This document shows positions 1,642 to 13,027 of a DNA stretch of 64,000 nt, piece by piece. This DNA is from Karstenula rhodostoma CBS 690.94 (taxonomy: Eukaryota; Ascomycota; Dothideomycetes; Pleosporales; Didymosphaeriaceae), in the NCBI GenBank assembly GCA_010093485.1, contig MU001503.1:765132-829131 (forward strand). Reading direction: 5' to 3'. The position numbers were made by a program, and so were the translations under genes. Below the pieces are notes generated by a model. It had not been told where the DNA came from. It worked only from the letters and a program-made list of their open reading frames with translations, and made no database searches. How positions within the stretch are numbered: position 1 is the stretch's first letter; every line of letters begins with the position of its first letter.

Positions 1642-4066
1642 ATGGCGACCGCCACCATTTCGACACTCGACCTCTCTCGTCCAAGATTGCGCCAGGTCTC
1701 GCACTGGATCCGTGATGAGCTTGATCCGCTCGTTGCTCGGGAGGGCCCTGAGTTGCTTCGAGCTGATGACGTATTGACTTTACACGACATCTTCCAGGCC
1801 CTGGAGACATCTCCCAGTGTAACCGCTCTCGATTTGCGCGCTACCGGAATTCATAGAGCTGTCATGGAAATTTCGGGTATAGCCACCAGGTGGCCGGGCC
1901 GGTTAGCAGACGACTGCGACAAACTCATCGACCTGTGGACAACTAAATTCGGGCGTCTCGAGGATCTGCATCCTTTTCTTTACGGTAGAGGTGGGCGTCT
2001 TGAGGGCATTGCCTCGATTGAGGAGACCTCGAACCTTGTCAGTCACATTACCTGTACGACTAAACGAGGTACAACCACTCACTGTTCCTAGGCATTACTC
2101 AAACGATGGCAAGATAGCTGTCCCGACAGGATCTCACCGAAAAGGGCGCGTCGTCGTGGCGGTTTGGGCTTCCAACCGGGCTCGTATGCGTGTGGAATCC
2201 TCTGCTCTTCACCCAAGCTTATCCCTCTTTCTAGATGGTGGATCAACACTCTATTCGCTTGTTACGCTAGCATAATCGATGTCGACACGATTGACGGTGG
2301 AGTCTGCTATGACAAACACGGGGCATATGCAATTGTAATCCAGGAGGGAGGGGAGCTTGATGCATCAACCGAGTCGACTTTGACATACCGCTGTGGAACG
2401 GACGACCGAGGCCGATTTCGTTTAACAACCGCTACACCGAGAAGTAGAGAACCGCTTCGCGTTTTGCGAAGTCACAGTGTCAATAGCATATGGGGACCAA
2501 AGGCCGGCGTGAGATACGAGGGACTGTCAGTGCACTGCATCCCTTCGCAACGTTGTCTGACCAAATCACAGGTATCGCGTGACCGGGTGGGCGGTCCATC
2601 AACCTAGGACACCGTCCTCCAATGCTGGGCAAAAGGCTCGTCTTGGTGATATGTACTTTGATGTTCATCTTGAGAGATGTAAACGACCCTGAAAACACAT
2701 GCAACACGTACGATCATCACTAAATCCTGCTCCAGGCGATCCTGTTCCTTTACACGAAGTAGTTAAGTCCCCCACCGCGTCCGAGCTTGACGACTACTCC
2801 GAATATAAACGGCTGCGTAAGGTCCACCGAGACTTTCGCAATATGGTAACTACTGCCTCGGTCGATACGACCAGAATGCTTCCTGTGCCCGTGAAGGCCG
2901 CACCGGTCATCCTTCCGCCGGCTCTTACACCGTCGGATAGGGTATCATCTTTCAAAGTCTCTCCAGCCGCATCCCGATCAACTACATACACATGGGCCCT
3001 CGGTAAGGAATCTCCGGGTACGTCGCAGTATATACCCAGAGGTTGGCCAATCCTAGCAACTGAAGGGGAGACATACGTGGGCTCTAAGAGCCCGACCGCT
3101 ATACCATCTCCAGTACGGGCTGAGACATCGCGCCGCGATCTTCCTCGGACTCGCCCGGGTTCAATCGCAAGTACGTCAAAAAGCCGCCAGTCAATCACAG
3201 AATTCGCGCCCTGGATCGACTATGAACTCCCTCACCTTACCCTGCCTACGACTGGCGACTTGGCCCTTACGAAGCGTTCAACGATTCGCAGCAATTCCTC
3301 CCCTGATCAACCCGACAGCCATACCCCAGCCAGAAGAAAACTAACCCATAAGAACGGTGGTGATGAATATACCGTACTCCTACGTCCTGAATCATCGATA
3401 AAGGATCTAGATCCAGGAATAGACTTGCGCGCGAAGACGAGTAACAACTCGATTTTCGTACGAAGTCGCAACCCGGTGGCCAAACTCTTTGATGGTACGG
3501 AAGACGAGGCTAGCGCGGCTAACGACTACTTTTCTCTACGGCGACCGAGAGCTGCATCTGCTAGTTCAAAGTGCACCGCGGTTGTGTCCAGACGCCGTGA
3601 GCGTGCCAGCTCTACCGGGGACACGCTGCAGCCCGTGGCACCAATACCAGTCAAGCACGTGAGCCCTAGTCTATTATTTTTCGAAAGGCGAGATGCGGTA
3701 GCCTTTCCGTACGGCGACGCTATGTCTCCACTTTCTCCTTTGGACTGGAGCTCGGGGATTTTGTCCTGTGATCCATCAACGGAAGACGAATCAACACAGG
3801 GCGTGCCTACTACAGCTACCGGAGCGTTACTCACACCCCTCAAAGACTTCATTGCAAGCCGTCCCGTGGCTACCACCAGTAGCACGCTTACCTCTTTATG
3901 TAGGGCTGTACGGACAGACATCCATCGTCGTGGTGGTTACTGCGATGTCTCGCCCATGCAAACACATACTACACCTCGACCGCACGATATTGTGAGTGAG
4001 ATTGAAGAATCGGAGATCGAGGTTGCGTTTCTCGATCCTTTTCAATCGTCGCGCAAAAAAACATGA
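1642..4066 (+). CDS. SRA-YDG domain protein (five exons)
   Basis: Predicted reader of modified or hemimethylated cytosine; SRA-YDG domains of the UHRF1/SUVH class flip 5-methylcytosine. I join exons 1642-2037, 2092-2183, 2235-2525, 2572-2678 and 2736-4066 (introns of 54, 51, 46 and 57 bases, each GT...AG; the first has an ACTAAAC-like branch site). The total is 739 codons including stop. An N-terminal helical region (residues 1 to about 130, with TGIHRAVMEI and TRWPGRLADDCD) precedes the SRA domain at about 140-295, recognised by GSWW, HGAYAIVI, EPLRVLRSHS and GVRYEGLYRVTGW, the last appearing only after intron 3 is removed. The remaining 440 residues are polar, Ser/Thr/Pro-rich and probably disordered. 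No RING, SET or methyltransferase domain is fused. Splice sites are inferred; the domain call is strong. Confidence 0.8.
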
Positions 4067-5177: not shown

Positions 5178-6234
5178 CTATGGCCACTGAGTCCTATCGA
5201 GAGGGGTCGCATGCTTGACATACCCGATCCTGTTATCTAGTTTCGTCTGCCTGCCGTTCGGCAGGACAGGACCGAATTTTGGATGCACAAGCAGGCCAGG
5301 TGTAAAAGGATCCACTTTGTTCTTCTCCATGCCTTCTAGCAGCCGGTCCCAATTGACGCACTCGTGCGCGATTGTCCGGTTTCCACCGGGGAGGATGCTC
5401 TCATCGAACCAATGCATAGTGAGGGGTACGATATCGGCGTTGCACATAACTTGCTCGACGAGCATTTGCAGGCAGTGTACTATAGAGTTTCAGTCAAGAG
5501 AGCGCTAGGAGGGGCGGGCTGGCGAGAGTGGCTTACAGCTATGCTCATGCTGGAGCTCGGTCTCTTCCTCGGTCATGTCGGGCCAGTAGTAATCGGGGAA
5601 GTACGACTGATAGAGACGTTTCTGGGTGTCTCGTCAGTTTGATGCTAGGTTATATAACAGGACGTGGAAGCACACCAAACAGTGTAGTTGATGGATAAAA
5701 GCGTAGTTGGCTAGGTAGTTGCCGTTGGGCAAGCGAATACCCTCTTTGGTGCGTTCAAGCTTTTCCATGTATTCTTTTGGTATTTCCGCGTAGAAATACT
5801 GCATGATGTTGCTCCAGTTCCTGTCGAGCTCCTCGCTCGGCTGTCCGACTAAACCGTAGTCTTTTGAAGTCTCTGTCATTTTGAAGTAGGTCGGCTCATA
5901 CTCGACGTATTTCCGGATCGGAGCTACCGTCTCATGGTAAGCATGCTGCAAGAGGTGAACGTGTGGGAAGCTTACTATCGATCACATTGGCGCCGTGAAT
6001 ACGTTGTTTTTTCCACCAAATTGAAGTGGCTGTAGTGATAACGATCGAGTACGCAAGTAGAGCTACAACACCAGCGATGACGATCAGGACTTGTCTCTTG
6101 CGCGAGGTCCTATGAGGGCGTGCTGTGGGGTAGCCATCATGGAGGAGCTCATCTGACTCCATGGCAGAGTCAGAAGACTGGTCATCTTTGATGGGCGAGT
6201 ACGCCGGTCTGGTATCCTTCTCCGAAAATGGCAT
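5178..6234 (-). CDS. UstYa-family (DUF3328) oxidase, likely RiPP-maturing enzyme
   Basis: Membrane-anchored oxidase of the UstYa family, which carries out oxidative macrocyclisation or hydroxylation of ribosomal peptides in ustiloxin, phomopsin, asperipin and victorin pathways. Exons on the minus strand: 6234-5986, 5945-5676, 5621-5537, 5479-5178, summing to exactly 302 codons (301 residues, usual for the family). Residues 49-68 form one hydrophobic helix after a basic stretch, giving a type II anchor. Both signature metal-binding motifs are present only after splicing: H168-QL-H171-C172 and H200-SL-H203-C204, the second followed by a conserved-type segment with VMCNADI. A CVNWDRL segment lies near residue 245. 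Intron 1 uses an unusual GTGATC donor and is only 40 bases; introns 2 and 3 (54 and 57 bases) are ordinary. It is divergent from the repeat precursor 850 bases away, which suggests co-regulation and an enzyme-substrate relation (inference). Confidence 0.85.
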
Positions 6235-7083
6235 TGCAAAAGTCTTGCACGGGGTAGAAAAACAGCAAGAGATGGGGAGACTTGGGGTTCTACGGATCTA
6301 ACATAAGAAGTGCGGGTGCAACGAGTGGCCTAATTGCGGGGGTTAACGGGTGGATCCGTGACGAAGAAACAAGAAAGACAAGAGTAGCTAAGCATACGCT
6401 TGATTATCACGCTAGCCTCTCGACTATGCATGGCATATCACGCTGACGACAGCAACCGAGCAACCTTCCTGAACAATACTTCAGGCAACCCGAGATCTGC
6501 AACCTCAACATCATTGTGCTGACAAGGCGCTACAGGGGGAGAGGGCAACGGCTGTGTCGGAGTGATGTTTATTGAAGCCGGGTGACAATGTGTATGCGGG
6601 ACCTGCCTATCACAGCTAGAGAATGATGTCGAAGGGTGATGTTGATGCAGCATTGCACGATCTGGCAATTGGGCTAAGCTAAAATGGCATTAGTTGGAGC
6701 TTATCAAGTTCTTCGCGTTAATCATGTACACCTCACTACCGTACGAGACCTCACGTTGAAGCCGATATCAACAAATCACTGTCTGTCCGAGTGTCAACAC
6801 CCTGTTGCAGAGGATGGTTTGTACGTCGAGCTACGCTAACTGCGGCAGGTGAGAAGTAACTATCGCATATCGTACTTCGTCTCGGCCATGGATACACAGT
6901 ACCTTTCATCCTTCCGATGCCGGGCTGTGAACTGTCAGTAACTTGGACTGGTTGTTCCGGTTATTGAGGGCCACCCGTTACTACTTCAATGTCCGCGCGG
7001 ACACCCCAAGCCTAACTCTTGCTCTTTTTTTACCACCCAACTCTTCTGCTCTGTTCCAAACATCACATCCTTTATCATTCACG
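6235..7083. promoter_or_regulatory. bidirectional intergenic region between UstYa-like gene and precursor gene
   Basis: 849 bases separate the two divergent start codons, so this must hold both promoters. A pyrimidine-rich run (about 7018-7080, ending CTTTATCATTC just before the ATG) is typical of fungal 5' leaders of secreted products. I could not identify a specific regulator site. A minus-strand frame at 6438-6668 has His/Pro-rich sequence without coding character. Confidence 0.5.
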
Positions 7084-7560
7084 ATGCACTTCAAACAACT
7101 TGCCATCATTGTGCCTCTGCTTGCGATTGCTGGTGCTTCTCCAGTCGCGGAGCCAAGTAAGTACACGGCCTGCATGGTCAGATACAGCACGTTGACAAGA
7201 CCAGAGCCTGAGGTTGCGGATGTTGCTGCTCGGGCTCAGCTCGAGAAAGACTCTGACGACGTCTGGCTGTGGAAGAAGCGTGGGGCTGCCCAGCTCGAGA
7301 AGGATTCTGATGACGTGTGGCTGTGGAAGCGAGCCGACGACTCGGACGATGTTTGGCTATGGAGGCGGGGACAAGAAGCGACCATCAAACGTGCCAAGCT
7401 CGCAAAAGATTCGGACGATGTCTGGCTGTGGAAGAAGCGCGAGGCCGCAAAGCTAGAGAAGGATTCTGACGACATCTGGCTGTGGAAGAAGCGCGAAGCC
7501 AGCGAGAAGAGCAAGAAGAGCAACCTCGTGAAGGACGCTGATGATGTCTGGCTGTGGTAG
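7084..7560 (+). CDS. Kex2-processed repeat precursor, candidate dikaritin-type RiPP precursor
   Basis: Secreted precursor with repeated cores. Exons 7084-7156 and 7205-7560 (48-base intron with GTAAGT donor) give 142 residues. Without splicing the frame also stays open because the intron is a multiple of three; splicing is favoured by the donor and by removal of a Cys/Tyr-containing stretch unlike the rest. Residues 1-18 are a signal peptide (MHFKQLAIIVPLLAIAGA). Six core units follow, of the form D-S-D-D-V/I-W-L-W at residues 40-47, 58-65, 70-77, 93-100, 111-118 and 135-142. Units 1-5 are followed by KKR, KR, RR, KKR and KKR; the sixth ends exactly at the stop codon, so Trp is probably the mature C-terminus. 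Spacers carry acidic or EA-containing segments (LEK, EAAK). The architecture matches UstA/PhomA-like precursors; the UstYa-like neighbour makes a cyclised product likely. No product is known to me for this core. Confidence 0.85.
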   Translation: MHFKQLAIIVPLLAIAGASPVAEPSKYTACMVRYSTLTRPEPEVADVAARAQLEKDSDDVWLWKKRGAAQLEKDSDDVWLWKRADDSDDVWLWRRGQEATIKRAKLAKDSDDVWLWKKREAAKLEKDSDDIWLWKKREASEKSKKSNLVKDADDVWLW

Positions 7561-8092
7561 AGGGTAAAGGGAGCCTGAGTAGATAGCGACGAGGTTGTCT
7601 TATGTAGCGATGATGATGCGCGAGGGCATGTTTTGTAAAGACACTCATTTGAAGCCAGCCGACGCTGGCATCACAAAGAAGTGCAATTCCGAGCAAAGAT
7701 TCGTCAAGGTGAACAAGCGTGTGGACTGCATGGTGCACCGCTCTTCTTGGTTCGCGCTTGGCCGCATGGTGTTGTATGAGTCAGGTGACAGCCTAGTGCT
7801 CCTTTTGGAGTTGGGGAAGGTTGTCAAGTCGACGGGCAGAGGAAGAGCATGATGCCTGGCCGTGGCAGAGGTCGTGGTTCCTGTGAGAGGGTGAGCATGC
7901 TGCCTGGCCGTGGCAGAGGTCGCGGTGAGTGAGTGGGCGAGTGAGTGAATGTAGTGGGGGGGGGCGGCGCGGGACGGGACGAGGGTGCTTCCCCAACGTC
8001 ATCCATCTCGTCCCACCTCATCTCGACTGGAATGGCAGCCACCATCAGGCTCTAGCTGCCCCGCGCCTTCCCTCCCTCTGCGCGCCGCAACC
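7561..8092. other. intergenic with a 48-base-spaced direct repeat
   Basis: Precursor 3' region and arabinonolactone oxidase promoter. A block with the core TGCCTGGCCGTGGCAGAGG occurs twice (about 7852 and 7900, 48 bases apart). The open frames across it give low-complexity sequence on both strands. No gene is supported. Confidence 0.5.
7845..7925. repeat. two-copy direct repeat, 48-base spacing
   Basis: Two near-identical blocks begin with GAGCAT at 7845 and 7893 and share about 30 bases with two mismatches (GATGCC/GCTGCC near the start, GTCGTGG/GTCGCGG at the end). They look like a recent tandem duplication in the leader of the downstream gene. Confidence 0.7.
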
Positions 8093-11360: not shown

Positions 11361-12575
11361 TCACTGGTCCAAATAAACGTTGAATGCGTTGACGTATTCA
11401 AACGCACTGGCTTTAAAGAAGCGCTCTTGGGTGGTGAGATTGACGTACTATCATTGTCAACGATGTTGTTCTTTTTGGCTTTCGGTTGACAACGTACCTG
11501 AATTCCAAATTTGACCGAATAGCCCTGGCTCCACTCACAGTTGTCGTAGATGCTCCCCGCCAAGTACCTACCACGTTCACACCCTCCGAAATGGCTTTCA
11601 AGATAACCTCAAGATAGTCACGGTAGTAGGCAGAGCGGAGAGGTTTCATGAAGATGGAGGGCAGGTCATTTCGAAGGGCTTCATAGGGTTCGCCTATATT
11701 CTGTTATAGCGACGCCGCCCTACAACCTGTGAACTAAAATTTCGAACGGACGAGTGGCAACCCTCAATCGAGTCATCCCTCGTGGCTTGGTACATGCTTA
11801 CCCGCGGCTTCCACCTATCTTGCATGTAGTGCAAGGACGCTGGCACTCAATCTGTAGTTTTGATTAACCAGAGCCAGGGTCCACGGCTGGACCGATGAGC
11901 CAGTAACCGTTTGCATACGTCTTGGTGGAGTTGTAGCAAGACGGAAAATTGGATGGCTCTCATTCTTCGTACACGCCTCAATTTCGCTGTCATGAAGTCA
12001 CTGGTAAGCGTCATGTGCGTAATGTTGGTCTGGGCTTTCTGGTCGTCTGTGAAAGGGTCCAAGAATGTCTCGACGTACTCTTTCAGGCCAATTTTTTTTA
12101 GTATTGCATTGCTCATCGTGGGGCAACACACGGTACTCAAGCTTTTGTCCGGACATTGCAGTCTAACCGTACCTTCTTTGTACTGATAGTAGTTGTTATT
12201 CGCAACATCTCCAGTCTCATTAGTCACTACGTAGCTGGGAACCCGGTGAGACAAAACGTCCCATATGCTAGGGACCCGGCTCTCTGCTTTGGCTGCAACT
12301 TCAATCTGATATGCGGCACCAGCATCGCTGTACCAGAAGTTTTTGGGAAACTTCCAGCTCTCGTTCTTCGCTCGGAGCGGCACTTGCTGTCCCGTGGGAA
12401 GCGAAGGGTAATACAATGGAAGTGGAAGGATCACAGAACTCGACGGGATGGGAGCTGGCTGGACGGTGGCATTGATCGAGAATGTCGAGATTGGGCCCAC
12501 GTATGGATGGCTGACTGTCTGCGGGGAAGAAGGTACGCAGGCGCAGGGTATCATCCATTGGCAGGCTACAACCAT
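11361..12575 (-). pseudogene. GH1 beta-glucosidase relic with internal deletion and frameshift
   Basis: Fragments of one glycoside hydrolase family 1 gene in correct order on the minus strand. N-terminal part (about 12500-12200): FSINATV, a Pro-rich linker, then WKFPKNFWYSDAGAAYQIE and PSIWDVLSHRVPSYV, matching the start of the GH1 barrel. C-terminal part (about 11650-11361): YYRDYLEVILKAIS, VNVVGTW, a frameshift, IYDNCEWSQGYSVKFGIQ, an intact-looking 3' intron and TTQERFFKASAFEYVNAF to a TGA at 11363-11361. The central barrel, including the acid/base NEP region, is absent; about 200-350 bases between the parts carry unrelated sequence. Sequence degeneration (WYSD where WG.AS is expected) fits loss of function. 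The N-terminal frame still encodes 242 codons, but no active enzyme could result. Confidence 0.75.
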
Positions 12576-13027
12576 TGGGGCCTGGCATCACATTGCATGC
12601 AAGAAGACGATTTCGGGATGCCGGAGTTCAAGCGAGAAGGGGTGCGTGCGGGCCGGTCCTAGGTGCAGCTGGATCCTTGGAGACGCCCAGGTCAGGTGAT
12701 CTAATCATCACGTGACGGATAAGCCACCTGGGCTGCTGTTGAGGCTGGCGCAACGCTGGCGGCGAAGACCGTGTAACTGCTTTGCTTAAGTAGCCCAGCA
12801 CCATGCAGAGGCCGCCAGCATTGTTGCGCGTCCACAGCTGCGCCACCTGTTGACCACCATCGCCCGTAGTCCACTGCGTCGCCCGCTCCCAGGTCGCTGC
12901 GGGAGCGCCCGAGACGCCTCAGTCCTGTCGCGCGCCGGCACCCCACATTTGTTCCTCCGCTTCGCGCCGTCGTCACCACCTGCACGTCCCACACAGCGCG
13001 TTGCTCGTCGGGAGCTCTCGCCTTCGC

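Follow-up and report, generated by a model that had tools for sequence, protein, structure and literature searches.

What does a fungal locus make in which a gene for a short, repeat-bearing protein stands divergently beside the gene of a single UstYa-family oxidase, when the repeats hold neither Tyr nor Phe? We addressed this question in Karstenula rhodostoma CBS 690.94 (Didymosphaeriaceae, Pleosporales, Dothideomycetes), using a window, by which we mean the whole analyzed stretch of 64,000 nucleotides, that sits in contig C12 (1,867,176 bases) of the 44.3-Mb genome. We consider it probable, with appreciable room for doubt, that this is a stand-alone two-gene RiPP locus whose UstYa protein most likely cross-links a Trp-only acidic peptide.

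A six-unit precursor divergent from one oxidase gene

The two genes and their parts are as follows.

5178..6234, minus strand: UstYa/DUF3328 oxidase gene, ATG at 6234, stop at 5178, 297 aa spliced
6234-5976, 5923-5676, 5621-5537 and 5479-5178, minus strand: its four exons
5975-5924, 5675-5622 and 5536-5480, minus strand: its three introns
6235-7083: intergenic region between the divergent UstYa and precursor start codons, 849 bases
7084..7560, plus strand: precursor gene, ATG at 7084, stop codon at 7558-7560, secretory-type N-terminus, six D[SA]DD[VI]WLW units
7157..7204, plus strand: probable precursor intron, 48 nt, GTAAGT donor
7249..7272, plus strand: unit 1, DSDDVWLW, then KKR
7303..7326, plus strand: unit 2, DSDDVWLW, then KR
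7339..7362, plus strand: unit 3, DSDDVWLW, then RR, with KR just upstream
7408..7431, plus strand: unit 4, DSDDVWLW, then KKR
7462..7485, plus strand: unit 5, DSDDIWLW, then KKR
7534..7557, plus strand: unit 6, DADDVWLW, stop codon directly after

An earlier note on this DNA had described a six-unit precursor, five of its units followed by dibasic residues, about 850 bases from a divergent UstYa gene, and both statements hold: dibasic sites follow all five internal units (KKR, KR, RR, KKR and KKR, in order), the sixth unit ends at the stop codon, and the start codons are 849 bases apart. Both promoters presumably lie within the intergenic region. Unit 3 would be excised as ADDSDDVWLW, since KR lies immediately upstream of it. 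The precursor has 142 aa spliced versus 158 aa unspliced; because the frame is open with or without splicing, the 48-nt intron is probable rather than proven, and its removal makes the N-terminal region resemble that of the Xylariales relatives more. This N-terminus is hydrophobic, with a mean hydropathy of up to 2.99 over 11 residues, and the relatives look similar; by hydropathy it reads as a putative signal-peptide-like start.

Among the six octamers, an average of 74% of synonymous sites are changed versus 3.5% of non-synonymous sites, so the repeats are old, their likeness is no accident and selection has kept the peptide. No second precursor was found in the organism's own genome at E <= 10.

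Two unit-like stretches, window positions 7842-7871 (EEHDAWPWQR) and 7890-7919 (GEHAAWPWQR), lie some 280-330 bases past the precursor stop. They are 90% alike over 41 bases and rank seventh and eighth on the plus strand of the window, at 17.6 and 13.5 bits (the next scores 13.1), the 7890-7919 copy being close to background when taken alone. They are perhaps decayed former units.

The oxidase is a UstYa-family protein

The spliced oxidase matches the UstYa profile PF11807 with an E value of 5.4e-41 and 141.3 bits (Pfam cut-off 25), and it carries two HxxHC motifs, HQLHC at residue 164 and HSLHC at residue 196, the latter arising only after removal of intron 3. The note's proposal of a genuine UstYa-family gene with both motifs thus withstood the DUF3328 profile search that it had named as a check, and its count of 301 residues for the spliced protein has to be corrected to 297. 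The hydropathy maximum at residues 49-67 marks a membrane stretch near the N-terminus, where the predicted structure of the orthologue P0010 has a helix (46-78).

Introns 2 and 3 are supported by the public gene model P0019 (P171DRAFT_363646, 196 aa), which matches the oxidase exactly over its 196 C-terminal residues. At intron 1, our reading agrees with that of the homologue P0011, and P0010 has four extra residues. In an alignment of 44 UstYa relatives (A2, which took in 44 of 51 search matches), both His and the Cys of the first HxxHC are invariant; in the second, the first His is invariant and the other His and the Cys are at least 90% conserved.

Related precursors share the unit across two fungal classes

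A search with the precursor as query returned nine proteins at E <= 0.01 among 130 candidates, and a search with the alignment of those nine returned 11 at E <= 1, with 7995 candidates scored, two of them new. P0001 is 80% identical to the window's precursor, and 10 of the 11 relatives come from Xylariales or Thyridium; a taxonomy check places Biscogniauxia, Thyridium, Xylaria and Camillea in Sordariomycetes. Neither search returned a public Karstenula precursor; the gene has apparently been missed in annotation.

Across the 12 precursors (11 relatives plus the window's) there are 48 WLW units, every one with Asp at positions -5 and -3 and Val or Ile at -1, and all 12 precursors end exactly in WLW; the constancy of WLW itself is by construction, since it served as the search key. 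The window's precursor has no Tyr after residue 20, nor do 10 of the 11 relatives, and P0002 has a single Tyr, located in its N-terminal extension.

All 36 internal units directly precede Lys or Arg, followed by KK in 19 cases, KKR in seven, K then E or T before K(K)R in six, KR in three and RR in one. KK without R is a weak kexin site, and its presence at 19 of 36 internal units is counted against the explanation that we prefer.

No Pfam match to the pheromone profile was found for the window's precursor or for the nine relatives scanned. PF28562, listed for P0062, was set aside; the Pfam scan of nine of the 11 relatives gave nothing above cut-off.

Some relatives hold Trp outside the WLW units: four in P0009 (Xylariomycetidae sp. 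FL0641), one in P0005 (Thyridium curvatum) and one in P0002, the last within the N-terminal extension. In P0009 and P0005 these form a second type of Trp-bearing segment between basic sites, and precursors of this kind may yield two peptide types.

The precursor/UstYa pair appears to recur in relatives

For six of the 11 precursor relatives, the same organism has a UstYa protein on a contig of equal length, and in four of these six pairs the protein numbers are one or two apart.

Xylariaceae FL1272: pair on same-length contig, protein numbers 474023/474021
Biscogniauxia mediterranea: pair on same-length contig, protein numbers 645333/645331
Xylaria scruposa: pair on same-length contig, protein numbers 445704/445705
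Xylaria CBS 124048: pair on same-length contig, protein numbers 690495/690496
FL0255: pair, with the same-length contig as the sole match
Xylariomycetidae FL0641: pair, with the same-length contig as the sole match

Equal contig sizes and, in four cases, close protein numbers suggest that the two genes are adjacent in these relatives as well, which to that extent contradicts the refuting outcome named in the earlier note, that the two genes are never neighbors. For the remaining five relatives (P0001, Thyridium, Camillea, the second B. mediterranea and Biscogniauxia FL1348), no UstYa protein on a same-length contig is among the representatives listed. These are not counted as negatives, because the UstYa search (51 proteins at E <= 1e-20 among 465 candidates) retained one representative per 90%-identity cluster.

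A tree was built from 43 of the 51 UstYa matches and the query, with P0033, P0035, P0044, P0045, P0052, P0057, P0060 (partial) and P0019 (query fragment) outside it. The six paired UstYa proteins and that of Karstenula fall in one clade of 25 entries with support of 100/98. Against the pairing, no precursor was found for 15 of the 22 named entries of this clade, including all six named entries of a Thermothelomyces-Coniochaeta-Rhypophila subclade (8 entries). Small repeat genes are easily overlooked in annotation, as Karstenula's own seems to have been; it is equally possible that these members have a different substrate or have lost theirs.

Dothideomycetes are represented among the named entries of this clade by Karstenula and Kalmusia alone. 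Classes were looked up for these two, Biscogniauxia and Xylaria, and the remaining entries we take to be non-Dothideomycetes. We make no claim of horizontal transfer into Didymosphaeriaceae: in an AU test on 30 entries, a single clade of the six Dothideomycete entries was not rejected (p 0.083).

Surroundings of the pair

The genes on either side are the following.

Left of the pair: Arf-type GTPase, NSUN5-type rRNA methyltransferase and a 455-residue frame without Pfam match
Right of the pair: D-arabinono-1,4-lactone oxidase (ALO), GH1 fragment, Spt20, PhoD and F-box

We took open reading frames of at least 110 aa, with overlaps thinned, from window positions 1-30000 and the adjoining stretch L012; of 36 in total, three belong to the pair and 33 were scanned against Pfam. 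No tyrosinase, P450, transporter or peptidase was recognized among these 33, a scan that short or intron-split genes may escape. The methyltransferase matched among them is of the NSUN5 rRNA type, and one sulfotransferase match fell below cut-off. Exon matches across the genome revealed about 43 UstYa loci and no second one near the precursor; the 850 bp upstream of any UstYa locus make up 0.08% of the genome. Since no further recognizable RiPP gene is present among the scanned frames, the locus consists of two genes as far as visible, as the earlier note had supposed. One match to the kexin-type P-domain was found in the Karstenula genome.

The 455-residue frame (window 2699-4066, plus strand) lies between the NSUN5-type and UstYa genes. 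For another frame (11850-12587, minus strand), the match to the glycosyl hydrolase family 1 profile is confined to positions 4-62 of 453; this frame is either an intron-split gene or a fragment. To the left of the window, a block of at least 18 kb with a GC content of 0.14-0.22 (L011 and L012:1-8000, C12:745132 to about 763131) holds no open reading frame of at least 110 aa and stops abruptly about 2 kb before the window; it looks like a decayed repeat block. Elsewhere, near 37 kb of contig C17, two UstYa loci lie in opposite directions within 1 kb. The genome's other UstYa loci are candidates for further RiPP pathways.

Class membership and known systems

Whether the locus is "dikaritin-type", as the note had called it, depends on the definition. 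A recent broad one takes a DUF3328 protein with two HxxHC motifs as the class-defining enzyme (PMC12048977), and the term stands on this basis: the locus has the UstYa profile match, both motifs and repeated cores between kexin sites in a precursor 849 bases away. It does not stand under the older five-gene definition of Ding et al., as retold in PMC12048977, with a tyrosinase, a methyltransferase and several DUF3328 genes; neither a tyrosinase nor further DUF3328 genes were recognized among the 33 frames scanned, and the Tyr in the core that marks the ustiloxin/phomopsin subtype is absent. Nor does the precursor have the marks of an alpha-type pheromone, given its unmatched pheromone profile and its DUF3328 neighbor. 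The pairing itself is typical of the KEP class, since for 22% of fungal KEPs a DUF3328 gene is found no more than 15 genes away (PMC7329392); nine dikaritin clusters are described in Venturia (PMC9632046).

Asperipin-2a likewise has a repeat precursor and one UstY-type gene, with no peptidase gene as described (PMC12048977; PMC7329392). However, asperipin is cross-linked through Tyr (PMC9233826), which the Karstenula core lacks, and its cluster has a reductase, as implied in PMC12048977, whereas none was recognized at the Karstenula locus. Ustiloxins and phomopsins share the multi-core precursor with its putative Golgi routing, the kexin sites and a UstY protein with two HxxHC (PMC9233826; PMC12048977), and the acidic residues before the core recall their conserved EDYXI (PMC6339444). 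Their rings start at Tyr and a tyrosinase is needed (PMC9233826; PMC7329392), in contrast to the Trp-only cores and one oxidase gene of Karstenula. Victorin, compared here by description, has a ring from a C-terminal aromatic residue to an internal Leu, which recalls the C-terminal Trp beside Leu, but the residue is Phe rather than Trp, the product is chlorinated and the cluster has peptidases (PMC9233826). A chemical analogy is offered by plant BURP-domain peptides of the lyciumin type, in which a copper enzyme joins the Trp indole nitrogen to carbon (PMC12186524), although this is a different enzyme family, in plants. The alpha-type pheromone precursors of fungi resemble the Karstenula precursor in repeats, kexin sites and its putative signal peptide, but they nearly always lack a DUF3328 neighbor according to the survey PMC7329392, and the Karstenula precursor has no profile match.

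Proposed pathway and its alternatives

In the pathway that we propose, the precursor would enter the secretory pathway through its signal-peptide-like start, kexin would cut after KR, KKR or RR, and a Kex1-type carboxypeptidase would trim the basic residues. Both steps are read from the dibasic residues and from a last unit that would require neither of them. The products would be acidic peptides, (x)D-S/A-D-D-V/I-W-L-W, with a free C-terminal Trp, as the last unit already ends. The membrane-anchored UstYa protein, a dicopper oxidase by family, would act on the units, with the constant DxD as a probable recognition element.

UstY enzymes have a dicopper site and form side-chain cross-links (PMC12186524), and DUF3328 proteins also hydroxylate, chlorinate and desaturate (PMC12048977; PMC10880069). 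The cross-links that PMC9233826 and PMC12186524 describe for the family use Tyr or Phe, both absent from the WLW cores, and this weighs against our reading. Since Tyr, Phe, Cys and His are all missing from the core, oxidation could fall only on Trp, Leu, Val/Ile, Asp or Ser. Most likely, a Trp ring would be linked to the other Trp or to the side chain of the adjacent Val/Ile or Leu, with desaturation or hydroxylation as the main alternative. We judge Trp cross-linking the most likely outcome, desaturation or hydroxylation the second and an unmodified peptide the third.

A UstYa protein that modifies without cyclizing would leave a linear peptide with desaturated Val/Ile or Asp, or with hydroxylated or chlorinated Trp. 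PhomYc, PhomYd and PhomYe make dehydro-Ile, dehydro-Asp and dehydro-Pro in phomopsins (PMC10880069), other DUF3328 proteins hydroxylate or chlorinate (PMC10880069; PMC12048977), and the strict V/I position and constant Asp suit such a modification. However, the phomopsin cluster has five DUF3328 genes (PMC7329392), so its desaturases need not cyclize, whereas one is seen beside the WLW precursor; moreover, asperipin-2a, from a single-UstY pathway, does become cyclic (PMC9233826; PMC7329392). We regard this outcome as unlikely, though deserving serious attention.

Less likely still are linear unmodified peptides, secreted as a hormone, a pheromone-like signal or a surface-active agent beside a UstYa gene that is unrelated or has another substrate. 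That two classes conserve the core with such unusual strictness would fit a signal, KEPs include linear pheromones, 78% of KEPs have no DUF3328 gene within 15 genes (PMC7329392), and a WLW precursor was not found for 15 of 22 named UstYa orthologues. Against this, the pair recurs on same-length contigs in six of 11 relatives, four with protein numbers one or two apart, pheromone KEPs almost all lack a DUF3328 neighbor in the survey (PMC7329392), and the pheromone profile is unmatched. A degenerate or silent relic, either an unexpressed locus or a secreted, repeat-rich protein that escapes cleavage altogether, would fit the two decayed-looking unit copies 3' of the precursor gene and the missing public Karstenula precursor but is very improbable, given the open frame, six intact units, mainly synonymous divergence and intact UstYa frame and motifs.

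Novelty and meaning

Returning to the proposed Trp-cross-linked peptide, its core appears to be new. The earlier note knew of no matching core, and a literature search with the motif letters and "WLW" found no relevant text; nor was this core found named in two KEP surveys (PMC6339444, PMC7329392), whose supplements may list it unnamed. Trp in DUF3328-associated KEPs is not new as such, since Trp-containing KEPs account for 20.5% with a DUF3328 neighbor versus 24.5% without, so that they are not commoner beside one (PMC7329392), a point against the preferred explanation. What that motif search did not find is a conserved family with C-terminal WLW in a two-gene form. Most KEP types are found in a single genus (PMC7329392), and a core that is near-constant across two fungal classes suggests a conserved target or signal. 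Tentatively, and with rather more doubt than belief, we extend this to a minimal two-gene macrocycle family across Dothideomycetes and Sordariomycetes, in which one dicopper UstY would cross-link through Trp and aliphatic side chains only.

With no Tyr, Phe, Cys or His in the core, any modification must involve Trp or side chains that are aliphatic, acidic or small and polar, and the WLW pair directly probes the limits of dicopper UstY chemistry. Should the pair prove sufficient, placing just these two genes in a laboratory host would reveal the product. The pair seems to turn up again in fungi only distantly related to Karstenula, an indication of a conserved natural peptide that has so far gone unstudied.
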